NCBI GenBank assembly: GCA_020631455.1
Contig: JAHDHF010000005.1
Coordinates: 1-46,747 of the forward strand
Direction: 5' to 3'
Length of the DNA: 46,747 nucleotides
Origin: Saprospiraceae bacterium
GTDB taxonomy: Bacteria; Bacteroidota; Bacteroidia; Chitinophagales; Saprospiraceae
This document shows positions 4,840-46,646 of this stretch, piece after piece (the first letter of the stretch is position 1; each line of letters begins with the position of its first letter). Below the pieces are notes generated by a model. That model worked only from the letters and a program-made list of their open reading frames with translations, had not been told where the DNA came from and searched no databases. The translations under genes and the position numbers were made by a program.

Positions 4840-4947
4840 GGGGCATCCGCCTTGCTTCGCTCGGCGGCGGGCTATCCGCAGTACGGTAACCTAGCCGCAG
4901 CTGAGCTGCGTCCGCTCGCAAGCTCGCGCTGCTCCTATCCCTATGCC
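4840..4947 (-). repeat. Structured intergenic repeat, family A, copy 1
   Basis: Minus orientation, A1 subtype. On the minus strand it opens GGCATAGGGATAG and closes GGATGCCCC, so the closing stem is GGCAT/ATGCC instead of the usual GGCTG/CAGCC (compensatory change shared only with the copy at 45538). The A1 box GCAGTACGGTAACCTAGC (plus strand) is present. One arm is the perfect hairpin CGCAGCT-C-AGCTGCG, another is CCGCC...GGCGG. Confidence 0.9.
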
Positions 4948-5029
4948 ACGCCTTTATTTACACTCTTTTGTTTCGTTTGAAACTTTTTGTTTTAAAATAG
5001 CATTGATTAGAGTAGACCCTTTATGCATT

Positions 5030-5602
5030 ATGAAACAAACTTTCCTACTTGTCTTCTCAATGATGACTTCTCTAGCAGCAATGTTTGCGCAAGAAGAATA
5101 TGAGATACTTGTACCCAAAGGCATCCAAACTTTTGAGTCTGCATCGGCTTGGATCGATGCCGATGCTCCACTGACATATCAGCAAGAATACTGCAACTCG
5201 CGATATGGTTTTTGTGTCAAGTATCCAGCAAATCTTTTTCGCACAGCCAAAACACCTCACAACCAAGGCGGCCTAAGTCTAGAGACAGCAAGTGAAGATG
5301 CGACGATCAGCTTGTATGGGTTTTATGATCTTGACTGGACAGCAGATGATCTCCTAGAACTTATGACTACCAGCCTCGAGGAATCATACAAACGTGTCAG
5401 AGTTCTTGAGTTTAAAAAAATTGATGAAAAAAATGTAGAAGTTCTATTCGCGATTGGCAAGCAACAACTCTACTACAAGACATTTTTACAAGAAGATCGA
5501 TACATCGCTGTGACGATACGTATTACATCAAAGGAGATATCAACTCTTGCTGCCATTCAAAAGAGTATGCTACCGAGTTTGCAGATTCTTACAGCAGAAT
5601 AA
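5030..5602 (+). CDS. Secreted protein of unknown function
   Basis: This is a 190-residue protein with a clear Sec signal peptide (MKQTFLLVFSMMTSLAAMFA, with QEE beginning the mature part). The frame is open back to 4943, but that start lies inside the family A repeat. The ATG at 5030 puts the signal peptide at the N-terminus and is preferred. The mature part has two cysteines in YCNSRYGFCVKYP, which could form a disulphide, then a mixed alpha/beta sequence. The YGFCVKYP pattern resembles secreted proteins in which a polar segment precedes a compact domain, but I do not recognise a family. It is flanked by family A repeats on both sides, so it is probably transcribed alone. Confidence 0.75.
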   Translation: MKQTFLLVFSMMTSLAAMFAQEEYEILVPKGIQTFESASAWIDADAPLTYQQEYCNSRYGFCVKYPANLFRTAKTPHNQGGLSLETASEDATISLYGFYDLDWTADDLLELMTTSLEESYKRVRVLEFKKIDEKNVEVLFAIGKQQLYYKTFLQEDRYIAVTIRITSKEISTLAAIQKSMLPSLQILTAE

Positions 5603-5611
5603 ATCAGCTAT

Positions 5612-5739
5612 GGCTGAGGGATAGTAGGCAGTGCGAAGCAGACTCAGACACTGCGATAGCAGTGTACAGAGGCCGAGCGAGCAGCGAGCTGCCGAATAGC
5701 CCGACCGCGACAGAATGTAATGATGGAGCGGGCAGCCCC
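5612..5739 (+). repeat. Structured intergenic repeat, family A, copy 2
   Basis: Plus orientation, A2 subtype: GGCTGAGGGATAG at the 5' end, GGGCAGCCCC at the 3' end, and an inner stem GGCAG/CTGCC. It carries the module GGCCGAGCGAGCAGCGAGC shared with family B. Its 3' end overlaps the candidate ATG of the YihY-family gene at 5720. Confidence 0.9.
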
Positions 5740-6730
5740 ATATCTTTTACTATTAAAATACAAGTATCTTGATCGCGTGAAACTCCGATCCGATCTCGAT
5801 GAGCCGACATGGCGAAATTATTCTGTGTGGCAGATCTTGCAGCAGACGTGGATCAAAGCAAACCAAGATCTCGTCTTCAATAAGGCTGCGGCAATATCAT
5901 ACTTTACTGTTTTTTCGCTGCCACCTATTTTATTTATAATTACATCGATTAGTGGTTTTTTCTTTAGTAAAGAAAATGTCCAGGCTTTTGTCTTTGAAGA
6001 AATTGGCGCATTAATCGGCAGCCAAGGCGCACAGCAGCTTTTTACGATGATGGATAGTTTTGGGATGTTTCAAGGAAGCATCTGGCGGACTGTATTTGGT
6101 TTCCTATTTTTAATTTTTACTTCTACGACTTTATTTGCGACAATTCAGCGCAGTTTAAATGTCATTTTTAGAGTAAAGCCAAAGCCGCGTATTGGCGTTG
6201 TCAAAATAGTTATTGATCGTTTATTTTCATTTTTACTCGTATTAAGTTTAGCGTTTGTTTTGCTTATTTCGCTAGGCTTGTACGCGGCTACAGGTTTTGT
6301 AGAGTCTTATGCTGTAGAGCATTTTCCAAACTTTTCTATTCAGGCTTATAATGCAGCAGCTATTTTTTATAGCCAGCTTATTTTATTTTTAATTATAGCG
6401 ATGATGTATAAATATCTGCCTGATGCGTACGTGAGTTGGCGTTCGTCTGGTTTAGGCGCTTTGCTTGCCTCTGCTCTTTTTTCATTTGGTAAATATTTAA
6501 TTGGCTTGTATGTCGGGCAAAGTGAATTTGTCACCTTGTATGGCGCGACAGGATCGTTAATAGTTATTTTATTGTGGGTCTATTATGCTTCGATTATTTT
6601 TTTATTTGGAGCAGTCTTTACGTATGTCTATGCACGTGTACGCGGCTACAGATTGCAGCCTTCAGATTATGCTGTCAAAATCGTGAGGCAAGAAATCATC
6701 GTCGAGCGCGGCAAAGACACAGAAGATTAA
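5720..6730 (+). CDS. YihY/BrkB-family inner-membrane protein
   Basis: This 336-residue membrane protein of the YihY/virulence-factor BrkB family has about six transmembrane segments. Family hallmarks visible are AAAISYFTVFSLPPILF near residue 60, the TLFATIQRSLNVIF segment, YKYLPD, WRSSGLGALLASALFSFGKYLIGLY and LIVILLWVYYASIIFLFGA near the C-terminus. The molecular role of the family is unsettled: older RNase BN claims were withdrawn and a transporter-like role is suspected. The start is uncertain. ATG-ATG at 5720/5723 lies inside a family A repeat, and the next in-frame candidate is GTG at 5777 (19 codons later). A strong terminator follows 16 nt after the stop. Confidence 0.88.
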   Translation: MMERAAPYLLLLKYKYLDRVKLRSDLDEPTWRNYSVWQILQQTWIKANQDLVFNKAAAISYFTVFSLPPILFIITSISGFFFSKENVQAFVFEEIGALIGSQGAQQLFTMMDSFGMFQGSIWRTVFGFLFLIFTSTTLFATIQRSLNVIFRVKPKPRIGVVKIVIDRLFSFLLVLSLAFVLLISLGLYAATGFVESYAVEHFPNFSIQAYNAAAIFYSQLILFLIIAMMYKYLPDAYVSWRSSGLGALLASALFSFGKYLIGLYVGQSEFVTLYGATGSLIVILLWVYYASIIFLFGAVFTYVYARVRGYRLQPSDYAVKIVRQEIIVERGKDTED

Positions 6731-6746
6731 TTGCCTTTAAAATAAA

Positions 6747-6776
6747 AAGCCGAGTCATAAGACTCGGCTTCTTTGT
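6747..6776. terminator. Bidirectional intrinsic terminator
   Basis: The 10-bp stem AAGCCGAGTC/GACTCGGCTT with an ATAA loop (6747-6770) is followed by TTCTTT on the plus strand and by a T-rich run (complement of AAAATAAA) on the minus strand. It ends the YihY-family transcript from the left and the rseP/hscB/tRNA-Leu transcript from the right. Confidence 0.85.
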
Positions 6777-6857
6777 ACCGAAGGCGGGAATCGAACCCGC
6801 ACTCCCGAAGGAACTGGATTTTGAATCCAGCGCGTCTACCAGTTCCGCCACTTCGGC
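6776..6857 (-). tRNA. tRNA-Leu (anticodon CAA)
   Basis: On the minus strand the sequence folds as a class II tRNA. The acceptor stem GCCGAAG pairs with CTTCGGT (one G-U), the anticodon stem-loop is CTGGA-TTCAAAA-TCCAG with anticodon CAA, a long variable arm contains TTCCTTCGGGAG, and the T-arm is GCGGG-TTCGATT-CCCGC. The discriminator base is A, and CCA is not encoded. It starts 12 nt after the stop of the hscB-like gene on the same strand, so it may be processed from that transcript. Confidence 0.95.
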
Positions 6858-6869
6858 AAGGCAGCTGCT

Positions 6870-7394: not shown

Positions 7395-8716
7395 CAACCG
7401 CCTAACCAACGCCAAATATCGAGACCATTGGCAAGGAGTACGAGCCCCATCACAAAGACAAATCCTGCTATCGTCGCGTATTCCATGAATTTGTCGCTTG
7501 GCTTTTTGCCTGTGACCATCTCATACAGCAAGAAGACGACATGCCCGCCATCAAGTGCCGGTATCGGCAGCAAATTCATAAACGCCAGAATCAAAGAAAG
7601 CATGGCAGTGTTCTTCCAGAAGACTTCCCAATTCCAATCCGTCGGAAACATCTTGGCAAATGTGCCGAAGCCGCCGAGGCTTTCTGAGACCTTTGCCGTT
7701 CCGTCAAAGAGGCGACCAAATGAGCGTATATAGATATTGAATAAGAAATCATAGGCTTCAGTAAAACCTCCTACTGCTGCTTCGCCAAGACCATATTCTT
7801 TAGTGACAAATTCGATATGATTTTGAGCGCCATCCATGACCATACCGAGTTTACCATCTTCACTGACTGCTACTTGAGTCGTAATTGTATCATTGCCACG
7901 TAGCCAGGTCGTGTTGATTGTCGAACTGCTTGCTTGCTTGAGTACAATATTAAAGGCAGGAGAAAACTGAATTGGCGAATTCCCAACGGCAAGAAGCTGA
8001 TCACCAGCTTGTATTTTGCCTGCATTTGGTGAATCGTCTGGTACTTCTACAAGCGTAACAGGAAAACGAATATCAACAAACACGCCTTTGTACGATACGA
8101 TTTCGCTTGCCAATGTTTCAGGTATTTGGATTGAGACATCTTGCCCTCCGCGCTTCACTTCAATCGTTTGCGCTTTGTCTAGGAAGATTCGCTTTCTGAT
8201 ATCGCGATAATTTGCGAGTCGTTCGCCGTCCATACTCTGTATAATATCTCCGTCTTGTAGCCCGATTGACTGCGCGAGTGAGTCAGCATAGATTCCGTAT
8301 TTCATGCCATCAGTTGGAATCGTGTCTTTACCCCAAACGAAGAGAATCATACCATAAAACAGAATACCGAGTATGACATTCATAATAATACCACCGAGCA
8401 TAATGATCAATCGTTGCCATGCTGGCTTAGAGCGGAACTCCCAGGGCTGCTCTGGTTGGAGCATTTGCTCCTTGTCCATACTCTCATCGATCATGCCTGA
8501 GAGCTTAACATAGCCGCCGAGCGGCAGCCAGCCGATTCCATACTCAGTCTCTCCTATTTTCTTTTTGATCACGCTAAACCACGGATCAAAAAACAAGTAA
8601 AACTTCTCGACGCGAACACCAAAAATCTTACTTGGCAAAAAATGACCAAACTCGTGTAACACAATCAGTATTGACAAACTCAGGAGCAATTGCAGCCCCA
8701 TGATGACATAATCCAT
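7394..8716 (-). CDS. rseP: RseP-type site-2 metalloprotease
   Basis: This is an M50-family intramembrane zinc protease of 440 residues. HEFGH at residues 21-25 in the first transmembrane helix supplies two zinc ligands and the catalytic Glu, and NLLPIPALDGGH near the C-terminus supplies the third ligand. The conserved membrane-associated GYVKLSGM loop is present, and two PDZ-like segments lie between (around AQSIGLQDGDIIQSMDGE and SPNAGKIQAGDQLLAVGN). Known relatives cleave anti-sigma factors or leftover signal peptides. The substrate here is unknown. An extended -7 element lies 52 nt upstream of the start, and the gene is translationally coupled to the hscB-like gene. Confidence 0.93.
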   Translation of the reverse strand: MDYVIMGLQLLLSLSILIVLHEFGHFLPSKIFGVRVEKFYLFFDPWFSVIKKKIGETEYGIGWLPLGGYVKLSGMIDESMDKEQMLQPEQPWEFRSKPAWQRLIIMLGGIIMNVILGILFYGMILFVWGKDTIPTDGMKYGIYADSLAQSIGLQDGDIIQSMDGERLANYRDIRKRIFLDKAQTIEVKRGGQDVSIQIPETLASEIVSYKGVFVDIRFPVTLVEVPDDSPNAGKIQAGDQLLAVGNSPIQFSPAFNIVLKQASSSTINTTWLRGNDTITTQVAVSEDGKLGMVMDGAQNHIEFVTKEYGLGEAAVGGFTEAYDFLFNIYIRSFGRLFDGTAKVSESLGGFGTFAKMFPTDWNWEVFWKNTAMLSLILAFMNLLPIPALDGGHVVFLLYEMVTGKKPSDKFMEYATIAGFVFVMGLVLLANGLDIWRWLGG

Positions 8717-8762
8717 ATTCTAGTAATTTCTTGAGCGCAAAAGCTGACCTCTCACGCTAAGC

Positions 8763-8775
8763 GGCTGCAAAGGTA
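8763..8775 (-). promoter_or_regulatory. Promoter -7 element of rseP
   Basis: The minus strand reads TACCTTTGCAGCC, a perfect Bacteroidota -7 element (TAnnTTTG) followed by GCAGCC, which also follows the -7 boxes of three other genes in the window. No TTG lies 17-23 nt upstream, so the -33 box is weak or absent. Confidence 0.5.
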
Positions 8776-8833
8776 CTCAATCACATCATCAAGCCATCTT
8801 CTGATTTCGCAACATTAAGAATACATTGATGAT

Positions 8834-8980
8834 GAGCCATCCGCTCCTCGCATGCTGAGCATACTCGTCGCGGTCGCTATCCCGAATTCTCGGGAGGAGC
8901 TTCGTGGCTCGCTATTCGCTCGGCTGCTTCGTGCTACGCACTCGCATCTGGCTATTGCCACCACTTCGCAGCGCTTGTCC
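8834..8980 (-). repeat. Structured intergenic repeat, family B, copy 1
   Basis: Minus orientation, between divergent rseP and the PpiC-like gene. On the minus strand it opens GGACAAGCGCTGCGAAGTGG and closes near TGGCTC. The first arm is TGGC-AATA-GCCA. Compared with other B copies it has an extra palindrome CCCGA-AT-TCTCGGG beside the GCTAT box. It lies 23 bp from a family A copy. Confidence 0.85.
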
Positions 8981-9003
8981 ACTCGAGAGCATCAACAGAT
9001 GCT

Positions 9004-9123
9004 GGCTGAGGGATAGAAGGTGTTGTCTGAACTCAGAATCATGAATCTTAATGAAATGATGCTGAGAGAGTGCCGGATAGCCCGACCTGGCCCTGAGCGT
9101 ATGCGAAGGGTCAGGGCAGCCCC
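9004..9123 (+). repeat. Structured intergenic repeat, family A, copy 3
   Basis: Plus orientation, A3 subtype: closing stem GGCTG/CAGCC, inner stem GGTGTT/AGTGCC held partly by G-T pairs, variable arm CTCAGAATCAT/ATGATGCTGAG, and second arm CCTGGCCCT/AGGGTCAGG. A false upstream start at 9020 lies inside it. Confidence 0.9.
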
Positions 9124-9159
9124 AAATACGTTCAAATTATCATGTCGTTATTATGTGCG

Positions 9160-9187
9160 TTTGCGCACGAGCATTTCACTATTTTTG
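9160..9187 (+). promoter_or_regulatory. Candidate promoter of the PpiC-like / SurA operon
   Basis: TTTG at 9160-9163 and TATTTTTG at 9180-9187, followed by CAG, match the Bacteroidota -33 and -7 boxes. The 16-nt spacer is shorter than the usual 19-21, so the -33 assignment is doubtful. The start codon is at 9239. Confidence 0.35.
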
Positions 9188-9238
9188 CAGTCATTTTGCA
9201 GAGCTACTCTATGCCGCTCATCACTTAATGATTTTTTT

Positions 9239-11224
9239 ATGCGTTTTTTGCTTTCATTCGTTTTGCTTTTTGTCATGTCGTCTGCTCTGATGGCTCAGAT
9301 GGCGCCGCCTCATGCTGAGCGTGTTAAATACGATACCCGCACCTTGATGACAGTTGGAGATATAGACGTTTCTGTTGCTGAGTTTGCCTATATCTACGGA
9401 AAGAATAATGCGGAAAAAGCTGACTACAGCGAGGCGTCTGTGCGCGATTATCTTGATCTCTACTCGACATTTAAGCTCAAGGTCGCTGAGGCTCGTGCTA
9501 TGAAGCTCGATACTGTCCCTTCTCTCAACAATGAGTTGAATGGCTATCGCAGGCAGCTTGCATCGTCATACTTGATGGACAATGGCGTCAACGAGGCGCT
9601 GCTTCGAGAGGCTTTTGATCGAAGCAAAACTGACAAAAATGTAAGCCACATCCTTGTATTAGTCAAAGATGGTGCAACACCTGATCAAGAGGCGAAGGCT
9701 AAACAAGTCATTGATCAACTTCATCTTGAGATCGTCAAGGGCGGTAAATCATTTGAGGCTCTAGCAAAGGCTTCGAGTCAAGATCCGAGTGCTAAAGAGA
9801 ATGGTGGTCGCATCGGCTGGATGACTGCTCTTCAGTTTCCGGGCTTGTATGATTTTGAAACTGCTGCTTACGAGACTGCGGTAGGTGAAGTCAGTGCTCC
9901 TGTGCGCACTCGCCTTGGCTGGCACATTGTCAAAGTCAATGATTCGCGCCCAGCTCGCGGCGAAGTAGAAGCTGCTCACATCTTGATACGTCCAAAAGAC
10001 GGCGATAAAGCTGCTGCTAAAAAGAAACTCGAAGCTGTAGAAGCTCGCTTGATGGCTGGTGAAGACTTTGGGAAAGTAGCTCAAGAAGTATCTGAGCATG
10101 TCGAAACAAGAGCTCGAGGCGGCTATATCGGGTTCTTTGGCATTGGTAAAAATGTCGCTTCCTTCGAAGATGCAGCGTTTGGAATCAAGTCTGATGGTGG
10201 CTATTCAGATATTGTTGAGTCGCCTGCTGGCTACCATATCATCAAACGTATAAGTGTACGTAAACCAACCAGCTATCAACGAGAGAAGAGTAAACTCAAA
10301 AATAAAGTGCAACGTGATAGCCGCTTTGAAAAAGCGAAATCTGCTTTTGTTGTTCAGCTCAAAGACGAATACAACTTCAAGCTCAAGGAGGCGAATGTCA
10401 AGGCATGGAAAAACAAACTGGATAAAACATTTGTGACGTACGGCTGGAAGCCTAATACGGAACAAGAAAATCAAGTTCTCTTTACTTATGGAGATCGTCG
10501 TGTTTTTACTGTATTTGATTTTGAAGGATGGCTCCGCACCAAAGCAAGTGAGCGTATCAAAATGGGCCGCATCGAATCAAAGGAACAAGTAGCAAGCAAA
10601 CTTCTAGATCGCTATATAGGCGAGCAGATAATCGGATATGAAGAGTCACAACTTGAGCGAAAGTATCCTGAGTTTAAATCACTCATGCGTGAGTTTGAAG
10701 AAGGCATCTTGCAATTTGAAGCGACACGAATGAATGTTTGGGATAAAGCTTCGCAGGATTCTGTTGGTCTAGCGGAGTTCCATGCGTCATCGGATAAAGT
10801 CTACAATTGGCCAGAACGAGTGGAAGTAACAAAATACACTATCGAATCACCAAGCAAATCGATCGCTGAAAAAGCTCGAAAACTAGCTGCTAAAAAATCA
10901 GTAAAAACAGTCGAGAAAAAGCTCAAACTTGGTTCTAAACTGACAACAGAAGAACTCACATTTGCCAAAGGAGTCGATCCTGTGATTGACAATATGTCTT
11001 GGAAGCCAAAATCTACGAGTCAGCTCGACCAGCCAAAAGATGGAGTCTTTGTTTTTTATCGCGTTGATAAGCGCCTTCCAGAGATGAAGAAAACACTTGG
11101 TGAATCACGTGGATTTGTCATTGCAGATTATCAGAATTTCTTAAATGATCGCTGGGTTGAGTCTCTTAAGAAAAAATACCCGATCAAAATCAACGACGAA
11201 GTTTTCAAAAGTATCCTTCGCTAA
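9239..11224 (+). CDS. Periplasmic peptidyl-prolyl isomerase with two parvulin domains
   Basis: This is a 661-residue secreted foldase. The signal peptide MRFLLSFVLLFVMSSALMAQ is followed by a SurA-like N-terminal helical part and two parvulin domains: about residues 130-235 (NVSHILVLVKDG...GWHIVKVND) and 242-340 (EAAHILIRPK...GYHIIKRIS). Then comes a long Lys-rich C-terminal part that may bind substrate. The frame extends back to 9020 through a family A repeat, but only the ATG at 9239 gives a signal peptide. The stop shares a base with the next start (TAATG). It is the first of three envelope foldase genes, a common Bacteroidota arrangement, and probably helps outer-membrane protein folding. 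Confidence 0.92.
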   Translation: MRFLLSFVLLFVMSSALMAQMAPPHAERVKYDTRTLMTVGDIDVSVAEFAYIYGKNNAEKADYSEASVRDYLDLYSTFKLKVAEARAMKLDTVPSLNNELNGYRRQLASSYLMDNGVNEALLREAFDRSKTDKNVSHILVLVKDGATPDQEAKAKQVIDQLHLEIVKGGKSFEALAKASSQDPSAKENGGRIGWMTALQFPGLYDFETAAYETAVGEVSAPVRTRLGWHIVKVNDSRPARGEVEAAHILIRPKDGDKAAAKKKLEAVEARLMAGEDFGKVAQEVSEHVETRARGGYIGFFGIGKNVASFEDAAFGIKSDGGYSDIVESPAGYHIIKRISVRKPTSYQREKSKLKNKVQRDSRFEKAKSAFVVQLKDEYNFKLKEANVKAWKNKLDKTFVTYGWKPNTEQENQVLFTYGDRRVFTVFDFEGWLRTKASERIKMGRIESKEQVASKLLDRYIGEQIIGYEESQLERKYPEFKSLMREFEEGILQFEATRMNVWDKASQDSVGLAEFHASSDKVYNWPERVEVTKYTIESPSKSIAEKARKLAAKKSVKTVEKKLKLGSKLTTEELTFAKGVDPVIDNMSWKPKSTSQLDQPKDGVFVFYRVDKRLPEMKKTLGESRGFVIADYQNFLNDRWVESLKKKYPIKINDEVFKSILR

Positions 11225-12090
11225 TGCAATTGATTCAACAATCAACATATATAACCTTAGGTTTTTCACTGCTACTACTCGTGTCAGCATGCGTTCCTCA
11301 ACGCGATCCTGAAACACGAGATGACGGAGCAGTTGGTCTCATTTCAGTGGGCAATTCAACACTTTTTCAAGAAGATATCGAAGGGCTGACCAATGATGAC
11401 ATGTTACCTGAAGACAGTGCGATTGTCGTGAGTTCTTTTATAGAGCGCTGGGGCAAAGACCAGCTTATCTCTCTCGAAGCTGAAAAACGATTTGGTGATG
11501 ATAAAGTACTTGAAGAGCTCGTATCAGAGTACAGACAATCTTTGTTACTTCAATACATGACAAATGATATTGAGTCAGCAATTGACACGACTATATCGGC
11601 TGCAGATTTGCAAGCGTTCTATCAAGACAACAAAGACAAGTATTTGTTGTCAGATGCCGCGATCATGCCGTTGTTTATCAAGATTCCGCGTAAGTCTTCT
11701 TTTTCTAGTAAGATCAAATCTACTTGGAAAAAGAAAAAAACATCAGAAGGAAAAGCTGAACTTCTCAAGTATAGCCAAAAACAAGATGTCACGATCATCG
11801 CAAATACATGGATGGAAGCAAAAGAAGTGGCAGCACTTCTAGAAGACGATGCGTTTGATAGCAGACGGATACGCCAAGGAAAAGAATACATTGAGAAGAC
11901 TGACGACTTTCGATATTTCCTATACCTTGAAAAAGTAAGCCAACAAGGAGAGCCGGCTCCTTTACAATTTGTCTACAATCGAGTACGTCATGCGTATCGG
12001 TACCAACAAAAACGCGATCAAATCAAAGAATACAGAGACAATCTCTACAAAAAAGGAATCGACAAAGGCATTGTACGCCTCGGTCAATAA
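11224..12090 (+). CDS. Lipoprotein, SurA-N-like chaperone without parvulin domain
   Basis: This 288-residue protein has a lipoprotein signal peptide ending in LVSAC, with the lipidated Cys at residue 23. The mature part is helical and charged, with a segment ISAADLQAFYQDNKDKY that resembles the linker before the parvulin domain of SurA-type proteins (compare TPSEVKEFYNSVPKD in the next gene). No parvulin signature (HILI...GW) follows, so it looks like a PPIase relative reduced to its chaperone part. It sits between the two parvulin proteins and is coupled to the first by a one-base TAATG overlap. That suggests a shared role in outer-membrane protein biogenesis. Confidence 0.75.
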   Translation: MQLIQQSTYITLGFSLLLLVSACVPQRDPETRDDGAVGLISVGNSTLFQEDIEGLTNDDMLPEDSAIVVSSFIERWGKDQLISLEAEKRFGDDKVLEELVSEYRQSLLLQYMTNDIESAIDTTISAADLQAFYQDNKDKYLLSDAAIMPLFIKIPRKSSFSSKIKSTWKKKKTSEGKAELLKYSQKQDVTIIANTWMEAKEVAALLEDDAFDSRRIRQGKEYIEKTDDFRYFLYLEKVSQQGEPAPLQFVYNRVRHAYRYQQKRDQIKEYRDNLYKKGIDKGIVRLGQ

Positions 12091-12102
12091 TAGCAGACTT
12101 TT

Positions 12103-13485
12103 ATGAATCATATTTTTAAACAGTGTTTTTACGTCCTTGCTTTTCTTCTGTCAAGCACCGTAGCGACAGCCCAAACAGATATCCTTGTTGACAAAGTCGT
12201 AGCCGTGATCGGTGACAGACCAATCTTGATGAGCAATATCGAAGAGCAGTTTAACTACATGCGTACGCAGCAGCCAGGAATACCCGACGAAGCTCGCTGC
12301 ATGGTACTCGATCAGCTCATAGGCCAAGAACTCTTGCTCGTACAAGCACAACTCGATAGTGTCGAAGTATCAGATATAGAAGTCGAAGGACAACTCGAAG
12401 CTCGTGTACAGCAGATTATGGCATACATGGGTGGCGATGTTGCTCAATTTGAAGCATACTATGGCATGAGTGTCAATGAAGTCAAAGACAACATGCGAGA
12501 AGAACTTCGCGATCAGATCACACTCGAGCGTATGCGAAGTACAGTTCTAGCCGATGTCCGAATTACTCCATCAGAAGTCAAAGAATTTTACAACTCTGTA
12601 CCAAAAGACAGCCTACCATATCTGAGTAGCGAAGTCGAAGTAGCAGAAATCGAGATCAGGCCGCAAGTCAGCGTCAAAGCAAAGCAAGATGCTATCAATC
12701 AACTCAAATCAATTAAGGAGCAGATCGTGTCAGGAGATGCGACATTCGCTGATATGGCAGAGCTCTACTCAGACGATCCAGGCTCAGCCCGTCAAGGCGG
12801 TGATCTAGGCTGGGTGAGTCGAGGCAGCTTCGTCCCAGAATTTGAAGCAGCTGCTTTCAACTTGCGACCAAATGAATATTCACAGATTGTCGAATCAGAT
12901 TTTGGAATGCACCTCATACAGCTCCTCGAGCGAAGAGGCAATAATATCAATGCCCGACACATCCTCATCAAACCAAAGCTCACAGATGAAGACCGCATCG
13001 ATGCTCTCAATCTAGCTGATAGCGTGTACACATTGATTACAGGCGACTCACTCGAATTTGAGCGTGCAGTAGCCATCTACAGCGACGAAAATGCGCAAAC
13101 ACGCAACTACGGTGGCCGCCTCATCAATGCCAAAAATGGTACGACCTATTTCGAAACAGCTGACCTCGATGTCAATGTCTACTTCTCAGTCGATACACTC
13201 GAAGTAGGCGAACTCACGATACCAGTAGAGCACCAAGATGAGCAAGGCAACGAGAGCTTCAAGCTCTACAAAATGATCTCGCGCACAGAGCCACACCAGA
13301 TGAACCTCGGCCAAGACTATGACCGAATCCGTCAAGTAGCACTCGAAAACAAAAAAGCCTACTACATCGAAAAATGGGCACGTGAGCGACTCGGTGATAC
13401 ATACATTAATATATCTGACGAATACGATGCTTGCGGAGTCAAAGAAAAATGGATACAACCATCGCGTAGCGCCACAGGATTTTAA
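12103..13485 (+). CDS. surA: Peptidyl-prolyl isomerase SurA
   Basis: The 460-residue periplasmic chaperone and isomerase has a signal peptide ending in VATAQ and a SurA N-terminal domain (VDKVVAVIGDRPILMSNIE...). Its first parvulin domain is at about residues 175-280 (ATFADMAELYSDDPGSARQGGDLGWVSRG...FGMHLIQLLERRG). A second parvulin-like region begins NARHILIKPK, with YGGRLIN in place of the usual GGDLGW, so only the first domain keeps the full signature. SurA escorts outer-membrane beta-barrel proteins to the BAM complex. The gene starts 12 nt after the lipoprotein gene and ends 12 nt before a family A repeat that contains an intrinsic terminator. Confidence 0.93.
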   Translation: MNHIFKQCFYVLAFLLSSTVATAQTDILVDKVVAVIGDRPILMSNIEEQFNYMRTQQPGIPDEARCMVLDQLIGQELLLVQAQLDSVEVSDIEVEGQLEARVQQIMAYMGGDVAQFEAYYGMSVNEVKDNMREELRDQITLERMRSTVLADVRITPSEVKEFYNSVPKDSLPYLSSEVEVAEIEIRPQVSVKAKQDAINQLKSIKEQIVSGDATFADMAELYSDDPGSARQGGDLGWVSRGSFVPEFEAAAFNLRPNEYSQIVESDFGMHLIQLLERRGNNINARHILIKPKLTDEDRIDALNLADSVYTLITGDSLEFERAVAIYSDENAQTRNYGGRLINAKNGTTYFETADLDVNVYFSVDTLEVGELTIPVEHQDEQGNESFKLYKMISRTEPHQMNLGQDYDRIRQVALENKKAYYIEKWARERLGDTYINISDEYDACGVKEKWIQPSRSATGF

Positions 13486-13497
13486 TATTGATAAATA

Positions 13498-13643
13498 GGG
13501 GCTGCCCCTTCATAAAACGCTCTTCGATATATAATCGAAGAGCGTTTTTTCATTCAGGGTCGGGCTATCCGGCAGCTCGCTGATCGCTCGGCTGCTTCAC
13601 TGTCGTTCAGCATCTGCTCCGCACTGCCTACTATCCCTCAGCC
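13498..13643 (-). repeat. Structured intergenic repeat, family A, copy 4 (with terminator arm)
   Basis: Minus orientation, A2 subtype, just after surA. On the plus strand it opens GGGGCTGCCC and closes CCTATCCCTCAGCC-like (ACTATCCCTCAGCC). It has the module shared with family B in the variant GCAGCTCGCTGATCGCTCGG. The distal arm is replaced by a complete intrinsic terminator (13514-13550). Confidence 0.9.
13514..13550 (+). terminator. Intrinsic terminator of the surA operon inside a repeat arm
   Basis: AACGCTCTTCGAT pairs with ATCGAAGAGCGTT (13-bp stem, 5-nt loop), followed by a T-run to 13550 and preceded by AA on the other side. It occupies the arm position that holds unrelated hairpins in other family A copies. 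Confidence 0.85.
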
Positions 13644-13684
13644 AAAAAACACATTTTCGTACTACAAAAACCAAATGAAAACTC

Positions 13685-13717
13685 ATTCTTAAAAAAGTAA
13701 GAATCTATTTAATTTTG
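13685..13717 (+). promoter_or_regulatory. Inverted repeat and -7 element upstream of the channel gene
   Basis: ATTCTTA (13685-13691) and TAAGAAT (13698-13704) form a 7-bp inverted repeat with a 6-nt spacer, immediately before TAATTTTG (13710-13717), a perfect TAnnTTTG -7 match 21 nt before the channel's ATG. The position suits an operator covering the -33 region. No TTTG is seen at the expected distance. Confidence 0.4.
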
Positions 13718-13738
13718 GCAACCCAAAAAATCAACCCC

Positions 13739-14665: not shown

Positions 14666-14679
14666 AATAAGTTGGCCTC

Positions 14680-14820
14680 GGACAAGCGCTGCGAAGTGGT
14701 GCGAGTGCAACGAGCAGATGCCGGAGGCAGCCGAGCGGACAGCGAGCCACGGAGCATAGCGACAGCAGCCGTATTTTTCTATTAAAAAATAAATAGAAAA
14801 ATACGGCTGCTGATGGCCCA
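14680..14820 (+). repeat. Structured intergenic repeat, family B, copy 2
   Basis: Plus orientation, between convergent genes. It opens GGACAAGCGCTGCGAAGTGG and closes GATGGCCC. The usual GACGCG arm is replaced by TGCC-GGA-GGCA. The distal arm is a long A/T-rich hairpin (AGCAGCCGTATTTTTCTATT paired with its complement), which could act as a terminator for either flanking gene. Confidence 0.9.
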
Positions 14821-14834
14821 TAATGATTATTGAT

Positions 14835-15821: not shown

Positions 15822-15834
15822 TTCTTGCGATTTA

Positions 15835-19507: not shown

Positions 19508-19629
19508 TGGGCCATCCCTACGCGCTTCATTCCATTTCGCGCTTCGGGTCGCTATGCTGCGTGGCTCGCTGTTCGCTCGGCCGCTTCGCGTCTGCTCCCT
19601 TCGGTCGCACCACTTCGCAGCGCTTGTCC
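19508..19629 (-). repeat. Structured intergenic repeat, family B, copy 3
   Basis: Minus orientation, between divergent accD and the FAD dehydrogenase gene. Plus-strand boxes are TGGGCCATCC, GGTCGCTATGCTGCGTGGC and CCACTTCGCAGCGCTTGTCC. It is translated by a false N-terminal extension of the following gene that begins at 19507. Confidence 0.9.
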
Positions 19630-21214: not shown

Positions 21215-21336
21215 GGCTGAGGGATAGAAGCAGCACGAGCGGAGCGAGTGGACGCGCGAAGCATGAGCGCGGCTAGGCTACCGTACTGCGGATAGCCCGA
21301 CCGCGACTGAATGCGAATGAAGGCGCGGACAGCCCC
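21215..21336 (+). repeat. Structured intergenic repeat, family A, copy 5
   Basis: Plus orientation, A1 subtype: GGCTG/CAGCC closing stem, inner stem GCAG/CTGC and box GGCTAGGCTACCGTACTGC. The second arm is CCGCG...CGCGG. The 3' flank AAATT follows CCCC, as in other A copies. Confidence 0.9.
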
Positions 21337-24709: not shown

Positions 24710-24862
24710 GGGGCTGCCCACTCGCAAGCTCGCGGTCGGGCTATACGCAGTACGGTAGCCTAGCTTTTTCTATTTGATCCACGCACTAAAGTACGTGGCA
24801 ATACAAATAGAAAAATCCGCTTCGCTCCTTACAGTCGCTCGCGCTGCTCCTATCCCTCAGCC
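24710..24862 (-). repeat. Structured intergenic repeat, family A, copy 6 (supplies a stop codon)
   Basis: Minus orientation, A1 subtype, between convergent genes. On the minus strand GGCTGAGGGATAG encodes the last residues and TAG stop of the SRPBCC gene. One arm is TTTTTCTATTTG...CAAATAGAAAAA with a nested CCACG/CGTGG. Another is CTCGCAAGCTCGCG-like. Confidence 0.9.
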
Positions 24863-25631: not shown

Positions 25632-25815
25632 GGACAAGCGCTGCGAAGTGGTGCGGCAAAGCCGCAGACGCGTAGCGGCCGAGCGATCAGCGAGCCACGC
25701 AGCATAGCGACCTTTTTTTCATTTCATTCAACCCTTCCTAAATCCTTCCCATGGAAAATGGAAGGACTTCAATTGCTCATTTTTCATTTAGATGAAATGA
25801 AAAAAAGGGTGGCCC
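25632..25815 (+). repeat. Structured intergenic repeat, family B, copy 4 (longest)
   Basis: Plus orientation, 184 bp. The first arm is TGCGGC-AAA-GCCGCA. The distal arm is a long hairpin, CTTTTTTTCATTTCAT paired with ATGAAATGAAAAAAAG, that encloses further palindromes around TCCTTCCCATGGAAAATGGA. It closes GGTGGCCC. The false start of the VF530 frame lies within it. Confidence 0.9.
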
Positions 25816-30374: not shown

Positions 30375-30517
30375 GGGGCTGCCCTCGCCTCATTTTATTT
30401 CGGCGAGGTCGGGCTATCCGCAGTACGGTAGCCTAGCTTTTTATTTTCTATTAAAAATAGAAAATAAAAATCCGCTTCACTCATTCCATTCGCTCGTGCT
30501 GCTCCTATCCCTCAGCT
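30375..30517 (-). repeat. Structured intergenic repeat, family A, copy 7
   Basis: Minus orientation, A1 subtype, in a convergent junction. The distal arm is CTCGCC/GGCGAG. Another arm is TTTTTATTTTCTATT/AATAGAAAATAAAAA, a terminator-like A/T hairpin. The outermost base of the closing stem is changed (AGCTG instead of GGCTG), leaving one unpaired position. Confidence 0.9.
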
Positions 30518-30710: not shown

Positions 30711-30849
30711 GGACAAGCGCTGCGAAGTGGCGCGACGTAGAGCGAAGCTCTAGGAGCGGACGCCGTAGGCGGCCGAGCGAACAGCGAGCCACGCAGCATA
30801 GCGACAGCAGCCACATTTTTCAATAGAAAAATGTGGCTGCTGATGGCCC
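30711..30849 (+). repeat. Structured intergenic repeat, family B, copy 5
   Basis: Plus orientation, just before the nadA 3' end. It opens GGACAAGCGCTGCGAAGTGG. The first arm is AGAGC-GAA-GCTCT. The distal arm is AGCAGCCACATTTTTC/GAAAAATGTGGCTGCT. It closes GATGGCCC. Confidence 0.9.
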
Positions 30850-34242: not shown

Positions 34243-34359
34243 GGGGCCACCCTTTCGCTCGTGCTACTCGCTTCAGGTCGCTATGCTACGTGGCTCGCTA
34301 TTCGCTCGGCCGCTCCTACGTCGCGTCTGGCATTCGCCACCACTCCGCAGCGCTTGTCC
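34243..34359 (-). repeat. Structured intergenic repeat, family B, copy 6
   Basis: Minus orientation, between divergent genes. On the minus strand the first arm is TGGC-GAAT-GCCA, the internal loop reads GGA opposite GTA rather than GAA/GCA, and the 3' end is GGTGGCCCC followed by AAAT. Confidence 0.9.
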
Positions 34360-36803: not shown

Positions 36804-36822
36804 CGCAAATTTTTGAACCACT

Positions 36823-37515: not shown

Positions 37516-37538
37516 TCGCTATTTCATCGATATCTTGC

Positions 37539-37577
37539 GAGCCGATACATATTGAATGTATCGGCTCGTCTGTTTTT
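37539..37577 (+). terminator. Strong hairpin with T-run before ribH
   Basis: GAGCCGATACAT pairs with ATGTATCGGCTC (12 bp, ATTGA loop), followed by GTCTG and five T. It ends 11 nt before the ribH ATG, so it is either a terminator for the TPR gene or a leader hairpin for ribH. No FMN-riboswitch signature is seen. Confidence 0.65.
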
Positions 37578-37588
37578 ATCCAAACTCT

Positions 37589-38116: not shown

Positions 38117-38125
38117 ATCAACAGA

Positions 38126-38977: not shown

Positions 38978-38990
38978 AATATATTTTTTT

Positions 38991-39104
38991 GGGGGCCATC
39001 CGCCTCATTACATTCGGCGGTCGCTATGCTTCGTGGCTCGCTGCTCGCTCGGCCGCTCCTACGTCGCGTCTGCTGCAAGCAGCACCACTTCGCAGCGCTT
39101 GTCC
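38991..39104 (-). repeat. Structured intergenic repeat, family B, copy 7
   Basis: Minus orientation. On the minus strand the first arm is TGCTG-CTTG-CAGCA. The second arm is CCGCC...GGCGG around GAATGTAATGA. It closes GATGGCCCCC followed by seven A. Confidence 0.9.
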
Positions 39105-39163
39105 GAAATGCTGGAATACTCAATTCTTTTATATATTCACGAGTACAAACTAAATAGCGAACG

Positions 39164-42916: not shown

Positions 42917-42937
42917 TAGCTCGAGTATCGCGAGCTA
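42917..42937 (+). other. Short hairpin after the large TPR/transglutaminase gene
   Basis: TAGCTCG pairs with CGAGCTA (7-nt loop) directly after the stop codon. No T-run follows, so it may only stabilise the 3' end; the family A repeat 22 bp later could terminate the transcript. Confidence 0.35.
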
Positions 42938-42958
42938 ATTAATATAATGGTAAAATTC

Positions 42959-43059
42959 GGCTGAGGGATAGTAGGCGTTGTTTGAACTCCGAGTGACTGA
43001 AAGGAACTCGGAGAGAGTGCCGAATAGCCCGACCGCGAGCAGAGCGAGCGGGCAGCCCC
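42959..43059 (+). repeat. Structured intergenic repeat, family A, copy 8
   Basis: Plus orientation, A3 subtype. The inner stem is GGCGTT/AGTGCC with two G-T pairs. The variable arm is CTCCGAGT/ACTCGGAG. The second arm is CCGC...GCGG around GAGCAGAGCGA. It ends GGGCAGCCCC followed by AAATT. Confidence 0.9.
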
Positions 43060-43072
43060 AAATTATTCTATT

Positions 43073-43109
43073 AAAAAAGCCTCTAATCAAAATTGACTAG
43101 AGGCTTTTA
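43073..43109. terminator. Bidirectional intrinsic terminator (aconitase side)
   Basis: AGCCTCTA pairs with TAGAGGCT (8 bp, 12-nt loop), with six A before it and four T after it. On the minus strand it is followed by a T-run and lies 21 nt after the aconitase stop. Confidence 0.8.
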
Positions 43110-43129
43110 TTATGAAGAAATGCGAAATA

Positions 43130-45397
43130 TTATCCTGCGAGTTCTTCTCTGATTTTATTGAGTGCTGAGCCGGCACGTACCCAGTCGATTTGAGCAGCAT
43201 TATACGTGTGATTGACTTTGAATGTGTGGCTCGTGCCATCAGCATGATCGAGGCGCACTGTGAGCGGTACACCTGGCGTAAAGTCAGCAAAATCGATGAT
43301 GCTTACTTTGTCATCTTGGCGGATGAGATCGTAGTCCTTCGGGCTGGCAAATGTCAGTCCGAGCATTCCTTGCTTCTTGAGATTCGTCTCATGGATACGA
43401 GCGAAACTCTTGACGATGACAGCTTTGACACCAAGGTGGCGCGGCTCCATCGCAGCATGCTCGCGGCTTGATCCTTCGCCGTAGTTTTCTTCACCAAAGA
43501 CGACTGTACCGATATTGTTGGCTTTGTACCAGCGTGCTGTATCAGGCACAGCTCCATATTCGCCAGTTTCGACGTTGAGGATATTGTTTGGCTGCTCGTT
43601 GTATGCGTTGATCGCACCGATGAGGCAGTTGTTTGAGATATTGTCGAGGTGGCCGCGGAATTTCAACCATGGTCCAGCCATTGAGATGTGGTCTGTCGTA
43701 CACTTGCCTTTTGCTTTGATCAAAATGCGCATGTTTTCGACTTCGCTTGTCTGCATCGGCGTAAATGGCGTCAACAACTCGAGGCGATTAGATTCTGGAT
43801 TGACTTTAATTTCAATACCAGAACCATCTGCTACTGGAGCGATAAAACCAGCGTCTTCGACATCAAAACCTTTTGGCGGTAGCTCGACACCTGTAGGTGG
43901 ATCGAGTTTAACTTGCTCGCCGTTTTCGTTTGTGAGCGTATCCGTGAGCGGATTGAAGCACATGTCTCCTGAAATCGCCATTGCTGTCACGATCTCTGGC
44001 GAAGCAACGAATCCACGCGTCTGCGGATTTCCGTCATTCCGCTTCGAGAAGTTGCGGTTGAACGATGTGATGATCGAATTTGCACGATTTGGATCATCTG
44101 TGTGGCGATCCCACTGACCGATACACGGTCCGCAAGCATTGGCAAGAACGACGCCGCCCACTTCTTCAAATACTTCGATCAAACCATCTCGCTCCACTGT
44201 GTGGCGAATCATCTCTGAACCAGGCGTAACAGTAAATTCAGCTTTCATTTTGAGGTTCTTCGCTTTTGCTTGGCGCGCGAGCGAAGCAGCACGATCGAGA
44301 TCCTCGTAGCTTGAGTTTGTGCATGACCCGATGAGGCCAACTTCTAGTACTGGCGGATAGTTATTGTCCTTTACCGCTTGAGCAAATTCGCTGATTGGCC
44401 AAGCAAGATCTGGCGTGTATGGGCCGTTGATGTGCGGCTCGAGTGTGCTGAGATCAATCTCGATCACACGATCGAAGTATTTCTCAGGATTGTCGTAGCA
44501 CTCTTGATCTCCAGTAAGATGCTCTGCTACAGAATCACATAAAGCTGCGACGTCTGCACGATCTGTTGCTTTAAGGTAGCGTGCCATAGATGCGTCATAC
44601 CCAAATGTCGATGTCGTCGCACCGATCTCTGCACCCATGTTGCAGATTGTGCCTTTTCCAGTACAAGAGAGGCTTTGCGCGCCTTCGCCAAAGTACTCGA
44701 CGATAGCACCTGTACCACCTTTTACAGTCAAGATGCCCGCTACTTTGAGGATGACATCTTTAGCAGATGTCCAGCCGCTGAGCTTGCCAGTAAGTTTGAT
44801 ACCGATGAGTTTCGGCATTTTGAGCTCCCACGGCATACCAGCCATCACATCGACAGCGTCAGCACCACCGACACCGATCGCGATCTTACCGAGACCACCA
44901 GCATTTGGTGTGTGTGAGTCAGTACCGATCATCATGCCGCCTGGAAATGCATAATTCTCAAGGACAGTCTGGTGGATGATTCCTGCACCTGGCTTCCAGA
45001 AGCCAATGCCATATTTATTTGAAACCTGTGATAAGAAATCGTAAACTTCTGAGTTCTCATCGTTTGCACGAGTAAGGTCTTTGTCAGCACCCACTTTTGC
45101 TTGGATCAAGTGATCACAGTGTACAGTCGATGGTACAGCAGTCTTGTTGCGGCCAGCCATCATAAACTGGAGCAAGGCCATCTGCGCTGTGGCATCTTGC
45201 ATAGCGACACGATCAGGTGCAAAAAAGACGTAATCTTTTCCTCGTGTGTATTCTTGGAGTGGCGACTCCGCATGCAGGTGAGTATAGAGGATTTTTTCGG
45301 CGAGCGTCAACGGACGGTTGAGCGTCGCACGCACAGCTTCAAGCTTCTGAGGGAGCTTGCTGTACACGTCTTTGATCATATCGATATCAAAAGCCAT
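43130..45397 (-). CDS. Aconitate hydratase (mitochondrial type)
   Basis: Aconitase interconverts citrate and isocitrate in the TCA cycle and needs a [4Fe-4S] cluster. The 755-residue protein has [37 protein letters not shown] and [11 protein letters not shown] (cluster cysteines: one in GSCTNSS and two in ACGPC), and [10 protein letters not shown] in the C-terminal swivelling domain. The length and motifs fit the mitochondrial-like AcnA group common in Bacteroidota. A -7 box lies 45 nt upstream. The gene ends in a bidirectional terminator. Confidence 0.95.
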
Positions 45398-45436
45398 AGA
45401 CTGATTGGTTACTGGTTATCGTAAGTGAGTAATTGA

Positions 45437-45449
45437 GGCTGCGAAAATA
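45437..45449 (-). promoter_or_regulatory. -7 element of the aconitase gene
   Basis: The minus strand reads TATTTTCGCAGCC, a one-mismatch TAnnTTTG with the same GCAGCC extension as the rseP and cysteine synthase promoters. No -33 box is evident. Confidence 0.35.
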
Positions 45450-45537
45450 ACACTTTCATTTCTCATACACTCGTGTACTGCTACAAGGCCTCGTAATTCA
45501 AATTGGTTCGAGATAAGCAAGCAAAAATGAAGGGTTT

Positions 45538-45642
45538 GGGGCATCCGCTGCGGCTACGCCTTGCGGCGGGCTATTCGGCAGCTCGCTGTTCGCTCGGCCC
45601 TTCGGTCTGACGCTGTGCGCCACTGCCTACTATCCCTATGCC
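45538..45642 (-). repeat. Structured intergenic repeat, family A, copy 9
   Basis: Minus orientation, A2 subtype, between divergent genes. The closing stem is GGCAT/ATGCC, the compensated variant shared with the copy at 4840. The inner stem is GGCAG/CTGCC. It carries GGCCGAGCGAACAGCGAGC, the module of family B. The distal arm is CCGC...GCGG around AAGGCGTAGCCGCA. Confidence 0.9.
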
Positions 45643-45683
45643 GAAAGATTTGATCTATCTTTCAATGTATAAATCGTTTCTAA

Positions 45684-46520
45684 TTGAGCTTACACAAACT
45701 ATTTGGAGCTGCCATTGCCTTGCTTGGTGTTTTTTCATTTTCATATTCATACGGATTTGGAATTGAAATGAAATCCCCCGGTATAGGACACGAAGAATTT
45801 GAAGTTGTTCGTAAGATGATGCTCATGTTTGTTGGATTACTGTTAATTTTTAAGCAGCCAATTTCAAGGTCATTCTTATTTATACTAGCTGCCTTTTCAT
45901 TTGTGATGAATATTTACAGCAATGAACATATTGTATATGTCTTATTAAATCAATGGTCAGAGACTTCTTTCATTGCTTTTCTAACACAAGGCTTTGAGTT
46001 TATAAATTTAATTTTTTTCTCTCTCTTTCTAGTTACACTTGGATTCTCAAAAGAGCTTATGAAAGAATTAGAAATAAATCAATTTGGGAAAATAGCAATT
46101 CCAATATGGATTTCTATTCTCGTTTTATTCGGCCACATATTTTTCAATTTAGTGTTTGTCAATGTAGTACATTTATATTACGAACTAAGGTATTCTATGA
46201 GTCAAAACTATACAGTATCAAGTCAACTTGATTTATTGATTCGTGTATTGTTTGTTATTCTGTTTTCATTATCGATGCTATTCTCTTTTTCTCGCAGGAA
46301 AATAGCTTCAGTATTTCTCTCTGGTTTTCTAATTCTCTATGCAGTTGTCCACTTCTATATGCTTTATTCAGCAAAATTGCGGTTCGAGCCTTTCGTAGAA
46401 AATATATTATTTATGTGCGTGAATATGATCCTGCCAATAGCAGTAGCACTTTTCTTGTTTTTCTGGAACGAAAAATCAAGTCAACAAGAATTCGAAATCT
46501 ATGATTCCCTTGTTGAGTAA
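45684..46520 (+). CDS. Multi-pass membrane protein of unknown function
   Basis: The 278-residue protein has about seven to eight predicted hydrophobic helices (for example MMLMFVGLLLIF, SFLFILAAFSFVMNIY, FINLIFFSLFLVTLGF, IPIWISILVLFGHIFF, VLFVILFSLSMLF, MILPIAVALFLFFW). No catalytic motif or family is recognised. The start is a TTG at 45684; an ATG at 45665 is out of frame and no nearby in-frame ATG exists. The base composition is AT-rich compared with the aconitase gene next to it, which may mark recent arrival. It lies between two repeats. Confidence 0.65.
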   Translation: MSLHKLFGAAIALLGVFSFSYSYGFGIEMKSPGIGHEEFEVVRKMMLMFVGLLLIFKQPISRSFLFILAAFSFVMNIYSNEHIVYVLLNQWSETSFIAFLTQGFEFINLIFFSLFLVTLGFSKELMKELEINQFGKIAIPIWISILVLFGHIFFNLVFVNVVHLYYELRYSMSQNYTVSSQLDLLIRVLFVILFSLSMLFSFSRRKIASVFLSGFLILYAVVHFYMLYSAKLRFEPFVENILFMCVNMILPIAVALFLFFWNEKSSQQEFEIYDSLVE

Positions 46521-46528
46521 ATTTATTT

Positions 46529-46646
46529 GGACAAGCGCTGCGAAGTGGTGCGCAGCAGACGCGACGAAAAGCGAAGCTCTAGGAGCGGCCGAGCGAACAG
46601 CGAGCCACGTAGCATAGCGACCGCGAGCAGAGCGAGCGGATGGCCC
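46529..46646 (+). repeat. Structured intergenic repeat, family B, copy 8
   Basis: Plus orientation, between the membrane protein and the rnc-like gene. It opens GGACAAGCGCTGCGAAGTGG and closes GATGGCCC. The first arm is TGC...GCA. The distal arm CCGC...GCGG around GAGCAGAGCGA is identical to that in family A copy 8. Confidence 0.9.

Follow-up and report, generated by a model that had tools for sequence, protein, structure and literature searches.

The 46,747-nucleotide stretch analysed here, called the window below, covers positions 1 to 46,747 of contig JAHDHF010000005.1 in assembly GCA_020631455.1 of a Saprospiraceae bacterium, and carries 17 copies of two related classes of intergenic, multi-hairpin repeats, A and B. 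We tentatively interpret them as interspersed resident hairpin DNA elements that are rewritten by intragenomic recombination and may have a boundary or structural role. Repeats in bacteria are commonly taken for mobile elements in decay or for RNA signals. The cultured predator Saprospira grandis and its relatives harbour from hundreds to about 1,200 (extrapolated) of these intricate folds, which are seemingly selected as DNA and whose parts are exchanged as blocks, though their place is kept and their flanks differ by about 3% between two strains. They lend themselves to the study of DNA structure in vivo and of repeat-driven gene conversion, and to asking whether oriented sites delimit chromosome blocks in bacteria.

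Copy number and genomic placement

An initial annotation of the window had proposed nine A and eight B copies on both strands, occupying about 2.2 kb. All 17 were recovered by box search at the same positions, on both strands, and their summed lengths amount to 2,203 bases (Table 1). When up to 3 mismatches are allowed, the B box GGACAAGCGCTGCGAAGTGG is found 8 times in the window, seven times exactly and once with one mismatch, and 0 times in 100 shuffles of the window. For the A box, the same tolerance gives 17 matches, against 6.9 expected and 13 in the largest shuffle; the real A copies are 9 of these 17 matches, six being exact, one having one mismatch and two having two mismatches. The latter two, at 4935 and 45630, bear a GGCAT...ATGCC end pair.

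The genome of the window comprises 2,913,157 bases in 323 contigs. Counted on both strands, it contains 370 A boxes (at most 2 mismatches) and 419 B boxes (at most 3 mismatches), the reversed patterns used as controls giving 2 and 0 matches, respectively. The expectation of hundreds of copies genome-wide is thus borne out. Placement was analysed in a sample made of the window and 20 further stretches, 391,567 bases in total (13% of the genome), of which 85% is covered by script-made gene calls. Over both strands, the sample yields 118 box hits, among which C85:67 and C150:31259 are, as judged by their sequence, chance matches. A single hit, itself one of these two, overlaps a gene by more than 40 bases. 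Of the convergent junctions, 18 out of 39 contain an element, compared with 18 out of 42 divergent and 52 out of 231 co-directional ones, so that the proposed occurrence at nearly every junction was overstated. When element-free junctions shorter than 120 bp are set aside, these figures become 18 of 22, 18 of 32 and 52 of 87.

Architecture of the elements

The elements are about 80-210 nt long and have four or more stems. Of 90 B and 87 A copies, 78 and 75, respectively, could be parsed into segments, and the remaining 12 of each were dropped before the counts; seven of the 12 unparsed B copies form a further variant, B2 (GGACAAGCGATGGGAAGGGG). In the general plan, an outer stem closes the element, and a second and a third stem flank a conserved internal loop. 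Further inside lie one to three hairpins, of which one is often a conserved hairpin containing tandem G.A pairs. Before the 3' end comes a last hairpin, which is variable. In S. grandis, this end is followed by CCAAAA and then an A-rich stretch, and similarity between copies extends 40-65 bp upstream of the 5' end, often with a GC-rich hairpin.

The B outer stem, GGACA/TGGCC, has a mid-stem A.G in 76 of 78 copies. It is followed by a CGCT/AGCG stem, the internal loop GCGAA / GNAGCAT and a GTGG/CCAC stem, after which come, in order, a variable hairpin, AGA, a second variable hairpin (first pair C-G in 54 copies and T-A in 23) and the conserved hairpin CGAGC-GAACA-GCGAG with its tandem G.A pairs, followed by the last variable hairpin. 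The A outer stem is GGCTG/CAGCC, or GGCAT/ATGCC and others, the second stem GGG/CCC, and the internal loop ATAGNA / GGATAG leads to the third stem. The A inner module is one of three kinds, among which the conserved hairpin of B, and the last hairpin is again variable. The two proposed families are both real, but they share one architecture: given their common layout of stems and loops and the conserved hairpin found in both, we regard A and B as variants of a single plan. The parsing also agrees with the hairpin-rich, modular build described initially, and modules are mixed, one A frame enclosing a B2. Compensatory forms are found both in the stem adjoining the loop (GTGG/CCAC, GTAG/CTAC and GCAG/CTGC) and in the G.A hairpin (CGAGC/GCGAG, and CGAAT/ATGAG in 2 copies). 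Near-identical copies are few: identity of at least 95% is reached by 0 pairs among the 78 B copies and by one pair among the 75 A copies.

Smaller repeats are nested in some copies. One, a palindromic insert about 20 nt long (of sequence CCCCGACTACTCAGGGG, or the complement), is found in A and B copies alike, in either orientation and in varying loops (seen in L010, L024, L025, L042 and contig 73 at 4211), and a related insert lies within the window B copy at 8834-8980. A second structured module of about 46-50 nt, ACAACAAG...CGACGACC.AAGGGAGTAAC, interrupts S. grandis copies at several places and differs between strains Lewin and WH-T (L130-L189 and L190-L209).

Probable folding as DNA

Selection probably acts on the folded DNA rather than on an RNA, because the strand of the elements is independent of transcription, their stems are almost purely Watson-Crick and their first hairpins carry GNA loops. 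Junctions and strands were analysed over 391 kb of the window's genome and 1 Mb of S. grandis. Along co-directional genes, elements lie on the '-' strand in 22 cases and on the '+' strand in 18 in the former, and in 74 and 60 cases in the latter. Since strand is unlinked to transcription and convergent, divergent and co-directional junctions are all used, we concur with the initial annotation that a pure promoter or terminator role does not fit.

Among 5,316 stem cells, 5,157 are Watson-Crick, 12 G-T, 4 A-C, 124 G-A and 19 other combinations. The last helix of A, which is misregistered, was excluded from this count (its cells comprise 160 Watson-Crick, 22 G-T, 5 A-C, 6 G-A and 32 other). As a control, the stems of 22 tRNA genes, drawn from the sampled stretches of three genomes and including some that are one gene in two strains, show G-T in 32 of 471 cells. 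The first-hairpin loops of S. grandis are GNA triloops in 207 of 270 copies, GNYA in 28, GNRA in 2 and UNCG in 0. In the window's genome, 40 of 78 B first hairpins have a clear apex and 38 do not; the clear ones include 15 GNA, 13 GNYA, 3 GNRA and 0 UNCG loops. Loops of the d(GNA) and d(GNNA) types are exceptionally stable in DNA. Finally, 99.0% of the cells pair in an alignment of 34 B copies, and both sides have changed in 7 pairs, a number that none of 500 shuffles attains; four out of five covariation measures exceed all 500.

Orientation and pairing of neighbouring copies

Neighbouring copies mostly alternate in orientation, a feature missed by the initial annotation. The neighbour pairs of the sample are distributed into 47 '-+', 46 '+-', 11 '++' and 4 '--', hence 93 alternating pairs out of 108, for a maximum of 78 in 10,000 shuffles. 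In S. grandis, 278 copies were located in 1 Mb by scanning for the conserved hairpin; their neighbour pairs number 110, 110, 35 and 22 in the same order, and the 220 alternating pairs out of 277 compare with a maximum of 173 in 10,000 shuffles.

The two kinds of inverted neighbours differ in spacing. Facing 5' ends lie from 12 bp to 4 kb apart in the window's genome and from 51 bp apart in S. grandis. Copies with facing 3' ends have their 5' ends 1,333 bp or more apart in the window's genome, which leaves about 1.1 kb between the 3' ends, and in S. grandis the 3' ends are separated by at least 893 bp. Because the 5' ends come close and the 3' ends never do, the inverted pair with its 5' ends inward looks like the unit. 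Among the 47 facing pairs of the window's genome, 18 are tight (at most 93 bp) and the others enclose up to 4 kb, usually with a gene. An A is joined with a B in 44 of the 47, a value reached in 0 of 10,000 shuffles. This pairing of A with B is absent in S. grandis and was therefore rejected as a general rule.

Comparison of two S. grandis strains

The strains Lewin (G071) and WH-T (G135) of S. grandis were compared over 400 kb of WH-T, a part largely collinear with Lewin at about 97% identity, and mapping a copy required both of its flanks. From Lewin to WH-T, 79 of 105 copies could be mapped (26 could not): 74 have a counterpart in the same orientation, 0 in the reverse one, and 5 have none. 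From WH-T to Lewin, 83 of 105 could be mapped (22 could not), with 79 counterparts in the same orientation, 0 reversed and 4 scored absent. One of the latter, the WH-T copy at 104070, is a mapping miss and pairs with the Lewin copy at 364573. No clean empty site was found among the nine scored absences; apart from the mapping miss, they correspond to remnants, disrupted copies and stretches with other flanks.

Place and orientation are thus mostly kept, and yet only 5 of 73 parsed orthologous pairs are identical. The outer stem is identical in 68 of the 73, and at least one of the three variable hairpins is clearly different (similarity ratio below 0.85) in 36; at two sites (303801 and 591076) one strain has an A and the other a B. 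Flank identity between the strains is 96.8%; whole-interval identities were left out because some intervals are misregistered. As place and orientation are mostly kept while hairpins differ as blocks, gene conversion between copies is the simplest reading.

At one site, a segment of 5.4 kb between two pairs is present in one strain only, with its breakpoints inside the spacers of the pairs. Lewin also has whole units repeated in neighbouring positions: two of these repeats are inverted, with 87% and 90% identity, and the third is direct, with 93%. Similarity in the first inverted case ends 5-10 bp past both outer ends; in the second, it ends 10 bp past one end and 14 bp short of the other. More generally, among the matches listed, similarity between S. 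grandis copies mostly stops 3-11 bp past the 3' ends, with exceptions up to 110 bp.

Bracketed genes and candidate enzymes

A Pfam scan was run on 39 proteins, 37 from stretches bracketed by pairs and two for comparison. A match was obtained for 27 of the 37, and by domain these look ordinary: an ion channel, an FAD-dependent protein, an EamA transporter, DprA, a peroxidase, a ClpC-like ATPase, a XerC/D-like integrase, a MiaB-like radical SAM protein, an ABC transporter, one Mutator transposase and others. Between the window's genome and S. grandis, 56 reciprocal best pairs were identified, and out of the 30 whose status is known in both genomes, a single one is bracketed in both. Brackets are therefore not fixed to genes over long times, and the bracketed genes are not obvious mobile cargo. 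In the window's genome, 6 of 46 bracketed genes have a hit in the S. grandis sample versus 50 of 162 unbracketed genes. Mobile cargo cassettes were nonetheless rejected as the leading interpretation, the bracketed genes including some that are core by domain and bracketing not being common to orthologues in S. grandis.

Two candidates for a dedicated protein were examined, Y1 transposases and SbcD. The window's genome has one Y1_Tnp match, flanked by another hairpin, GGGCTTAAGCCC, and no Y1 match was found in G013, which carries the elements. A transposase associated with repetitive extragenic palindromes (RAYT) or an IS200 was accordingly rejected as the mover, the lone Y1 gene having a different flanking hairpin. 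This IS200-like gene, encoding 144 amino acids between flanks of the GGGCTTAAGCCC type, lies on contig 126 (L099:1380-1860). Hairpins like GGGCTTAAGCCC also tip the long inner hairpins of some A1 copies, as if inserting into loops. The SbcD score exceeds the cut-off in 11 of the 13 carriers tested and in 10 of 11 other genomes, and loss of SbcCD as a condition for the elements was rejected on that basis. No target-site duplication was evident by eye in 21 close pairs.

Interpretation

If the elements are resident hairpin DNA rewritten by recombination, as we favour with reserve, they would work as a folded single strand or an extruded cruciform, and not as RNA. Their exchange would proceed by intragenomic gene conversion between copies, and selection would act on each copy for its presence, its orientation and its DNA fold. 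The pairs may mark boundaries between blocks of genes and be bound by a structure-specific DNA protein of the host. Enterobacterial bacterial interspersed mosaic elements (BIMEs) bind gyrase or IHF, and it is this analogy that suggests a boundary or structural role, which taken alone would be possible but doubtful. A more specific version appears improbable, in which oriented boundary marks of folded DNA partition the chromosomes into blocks through their alternation, are kept in place by selection on the fold and are continually refreshed as hundreds to about a thousand copies convert one another. If true, such marks would be a bacterial counterpart, in principle, to the oriented boundary sites of eukaryotic chromosomes.

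Several points weigh against the favoured interpretation. In S. grandis, the loops of the other hairpins are mixed, with 84 GNA and 22 GNYA out of 270 for the second hairpin and 91 GNA and 1 GNYA out of 276 for the last one. The fifth covariation measure, which counts further pair types, is reached by 73 of 500 shuffles. The single-stranded DNA folding energy clearly beats that of shuffles in 2 of 6 copies (z of -6.3 and -3.5); one of the other four has a z of -2.0 and three are ordinary. In S. grandis, again setting aside element-free junctions shorter than 120 bp, 60 of 81 convergent junctions are occupied versus 49 of 105 divergent ones. In the window's genome, the gene on the 5' side points towards the element in 36 of 61 cases for A versus 20 of 52 for B, a mild difference. 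Alternation is not seen in the carrier G112, rich in B-like copies (13 of 23), and was consequently rejected as a general rule. The second hairpins swapped between the strains are found verbatim in another sampled Lewin copy in only 16 of 30 cases. Finally, transcription of both strands could also yield strict pairing: RNA made from both strands could avoid G-U as well, and Watson-Crick purity is therefore a strong argument, not a final one.

The conserved multi-hairpin fold, the internal loops, the tandem G.A pairs and the covariation resemble those of functional RNAs and would suit structured RNA elements, whether untranslated-region regulators, terminators or small RNAs. We nonetheless hold RNA elements to be very unlikely. 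G-T pairs are about 30-fold rarer than in tRNAs, GNRA and UNCG loops are rare, and the S. grandis 3' ends have no T-run and are A-rich instead; a promoter, terminator or leader RNA in particular was rejected for lack of any strand preference along co-directional genes. At the DNA level, the inverted pairs of two classes and their sharp outer ends resemble transposon ends, for which reason we keep the alternative of a transposon-like cassette with A as its left end, B as its right end and passenger genes of 0-4 kb, moved by an enzyme that would read the folded ends. The joining of A with B in 44 of 47 facing pairs, the contrast between close 5' ends and distant 3' ends, the limits of similarity just past the S. 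grandis 3' ends and the whole units recurring as neighbours all speak for such a mobile unit. So does the S. grandis count of 91 long '-+' pairs (gap of at least 300 bp) versus 22 '--', as independent loss from an all-tight array predicts '-+' to be the rarer. A mobile unit is unlikely all the same, considering that many bracketed genes look ordinary or core by Pfam (ClpC-like, XerC/D-like, MiaB-like, DprA), that none of the nine between-strain absences has left a clean empty site, and that the short spacers have no common sequence by eye. Recent copies are few, the A/B pairing does not extend to S. grandis, and no transposase is tied to the copies, the lone Y1 gene sitting by other hairpins and G013 doing without a Y1 match.

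The elements could also be neutral or selfish repeats, whose direct neighbours are deleted, whose inverted neighbours persist and whose copies are kept alike by exchange. Frequent exchange between copies fits this alternative, as does the 5.4-kb presence/absence segment with breakpoints in pair spacers, and recombination between copies should leave alternation unchanged. The contrast in spacing is left unexplained, 5' ends facing each other at as little as 12 bp (51 bp in S. grandis) and 3' ends never below about 1.1 kb (893 bp), and so are the A/B rule at kilobase distance in the window's genome and the upkeep of pairing and of conserved internal loops across genera; we consider this alternative improbable too.

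Relation to known repeat systems

No copy, in the window or at five loci from relatives, matched Rfam. The single above-threshold match of the window is a tRNA-Leu at 6776-6857, and two sub-threshold matches at 43063-43149 adjoin a copy and do not lie inside one. The elements had initially been proposed as an undescribed family; consistently, besides the lack of an Rfam match, no description was found in the Saprospira and Saprospiraceae repeat literature searched, ISfinder lying outside the comparison. The literature consulted on S. grandis genomes, on REPIN/RAYT systems and on repeat orientation and gene conversion yielded no description of the elements, and the genome paper of strain WH-T mentions no such repeats (PMC10508125).

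Repetitive extragenic palindromes (REPs) are high-copy, extragenic sequences of several classes that form inverted pairs, with a folded single strand proposed as their working form (PMC3116915; PMC8266576). They are palindromes of 20-40 bp with a GTAG or CGTC tag at one end, and CGTC repeats are reported from Bacteroidetes, in a passage that does not name Saprospira (PMC3733652). Our elements resemble BIMEs and REPINs in copy number, extragenic place, sequence classes, inverted pairs and the proposed folded single strand; inverted pairs in extragenic space, by which REPINs and BIMEs are defined, are found here as well. They differ from REPs, which are associated with RAYT transposases, in that no such link was found here; in addition, the elements are about 80-210 nt long and multi-branched (size and stems set them apart, tags not having been looked for), and their pairs lie up to kilobases apart, around genes.

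The ERIC/IRU, BOX, RUP and Correia repeats are foldable intergenic repeats of 100-200 bp, BOX being modular. The elements are like them in size, intergenic place and foldability, sequences having been compared through Rfam only; alternating orientation, strict pairing and exchange of hairpin blocks are not known to be features of these families. Integron attC sites are recognised as a folded single strand and combine a conserved structure with variable terminal hairpins. By description, the elements would share both traits, but they occur in both orientations, and no array-like direct layout was seen. The ends of IS200/IS605 elements similarly have subterminal hairpins in single-stranded DNA, whereas the members of a pair here fold on opposite strands and the lone Y1 gene of the window's genome is flanked by the GGGCTTAAGCCC hairpin instead. 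DNA transposons and miniature inverted-repeat transposable elements are similar in their inverted ends and in the sharp outer boundary seen in most of the S. grandis matches listed, and different in that no clean empty site was found among nine absences scored over 400 kb of one strain, one of them a mapping miss.

Distribution in relatives

A covariance model, the check proposed in the initial annotation, was built for B and searched across relatives. With the window's own genome counted each time, matches occur in 22 of the 120 family genomes searched, in 15 of 298 at the level of the order (one of them a weak hit outside the family) and in 2 of 395 at that of the phylum. The family, order and phylum searches scored no more than 30, 12 and 9 candidates per genome, respectively, and the copy numbers are thus floors. 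Extrapolation from the 278 copies in 1 Mb gives a total of about 1,200 for S. grandis. The conserved hairpin is present in 4 of 6 genomes of the Saprospira genus group and was not found at up to 2 mismatches in the other two, G137 and G139. One of these two is 90% complete. Across genera, the plan is kept while the sequences of hairpins and outer stems differ, the latter including GGCCT/AGGCC, GGCTG/CAGCC and GGCCC/GGGCC. Phages were rejected as carriers, viral contigs having no exact match to either probe. A 55-kb plasmid of S. grandis Lewin (NC_016936.1; L213-L215) carries the core purine genes guaA and guaB together with copies of the element.

Copies in the window and additional observations

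Table 1. Location, strand and characteristics of the A and B copies in the window
Class	Subtype	Position	Strand	Characteristics
A	A1	4840..4947	-	End pair GGCAT/ATGCC
A	A2	5612..5739	+	
B		8834..8980	-	Tight inverted pair with A at 9004, 23-bp spacer
A	A3	9004..9123	+	
A	A2	13498..13643	-	With B at 14680, brackets ion-channel gene (13739-14665)
B		14680..14819	+	
B		19509..19629	-	With A at 21215, brackets FAD-dependent protein gene
A	A1	21215..21336	+	
A	A1	24710..24862	-	Long AT-rich inner hairpin
B		25632..25815	+	Last hairpin long and nested
A	A1	30375..30517	-	
B		30711..30849	+	Inverted pair with A ending at 30517, 193-bp spacer with no gene called
B		34244..34359	-	
B		38993..39104	-	Alternation broken relative to B copy ending at 34359
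A	A3	42959..43059	+	
A	A2	45538..45642	-	End pair GGCAT/ATGCC; with B at 46529, brackets one gene
B		46529..46646	+	

The window itself encodes SbcD, a subunit of a hairpin nuclease, at 34410-35165, beside a B copy. Elsewhere in the genome of the window, a stretch of contig 150 (L074:907-13042) is unusually poor in called genes. In S. grandis WH-T, L190 (sampled at 8474-15500) and the collinear Lewin region contain long internal repeats matching themselves at about 68-78%, possibly a giant repetitive gene.

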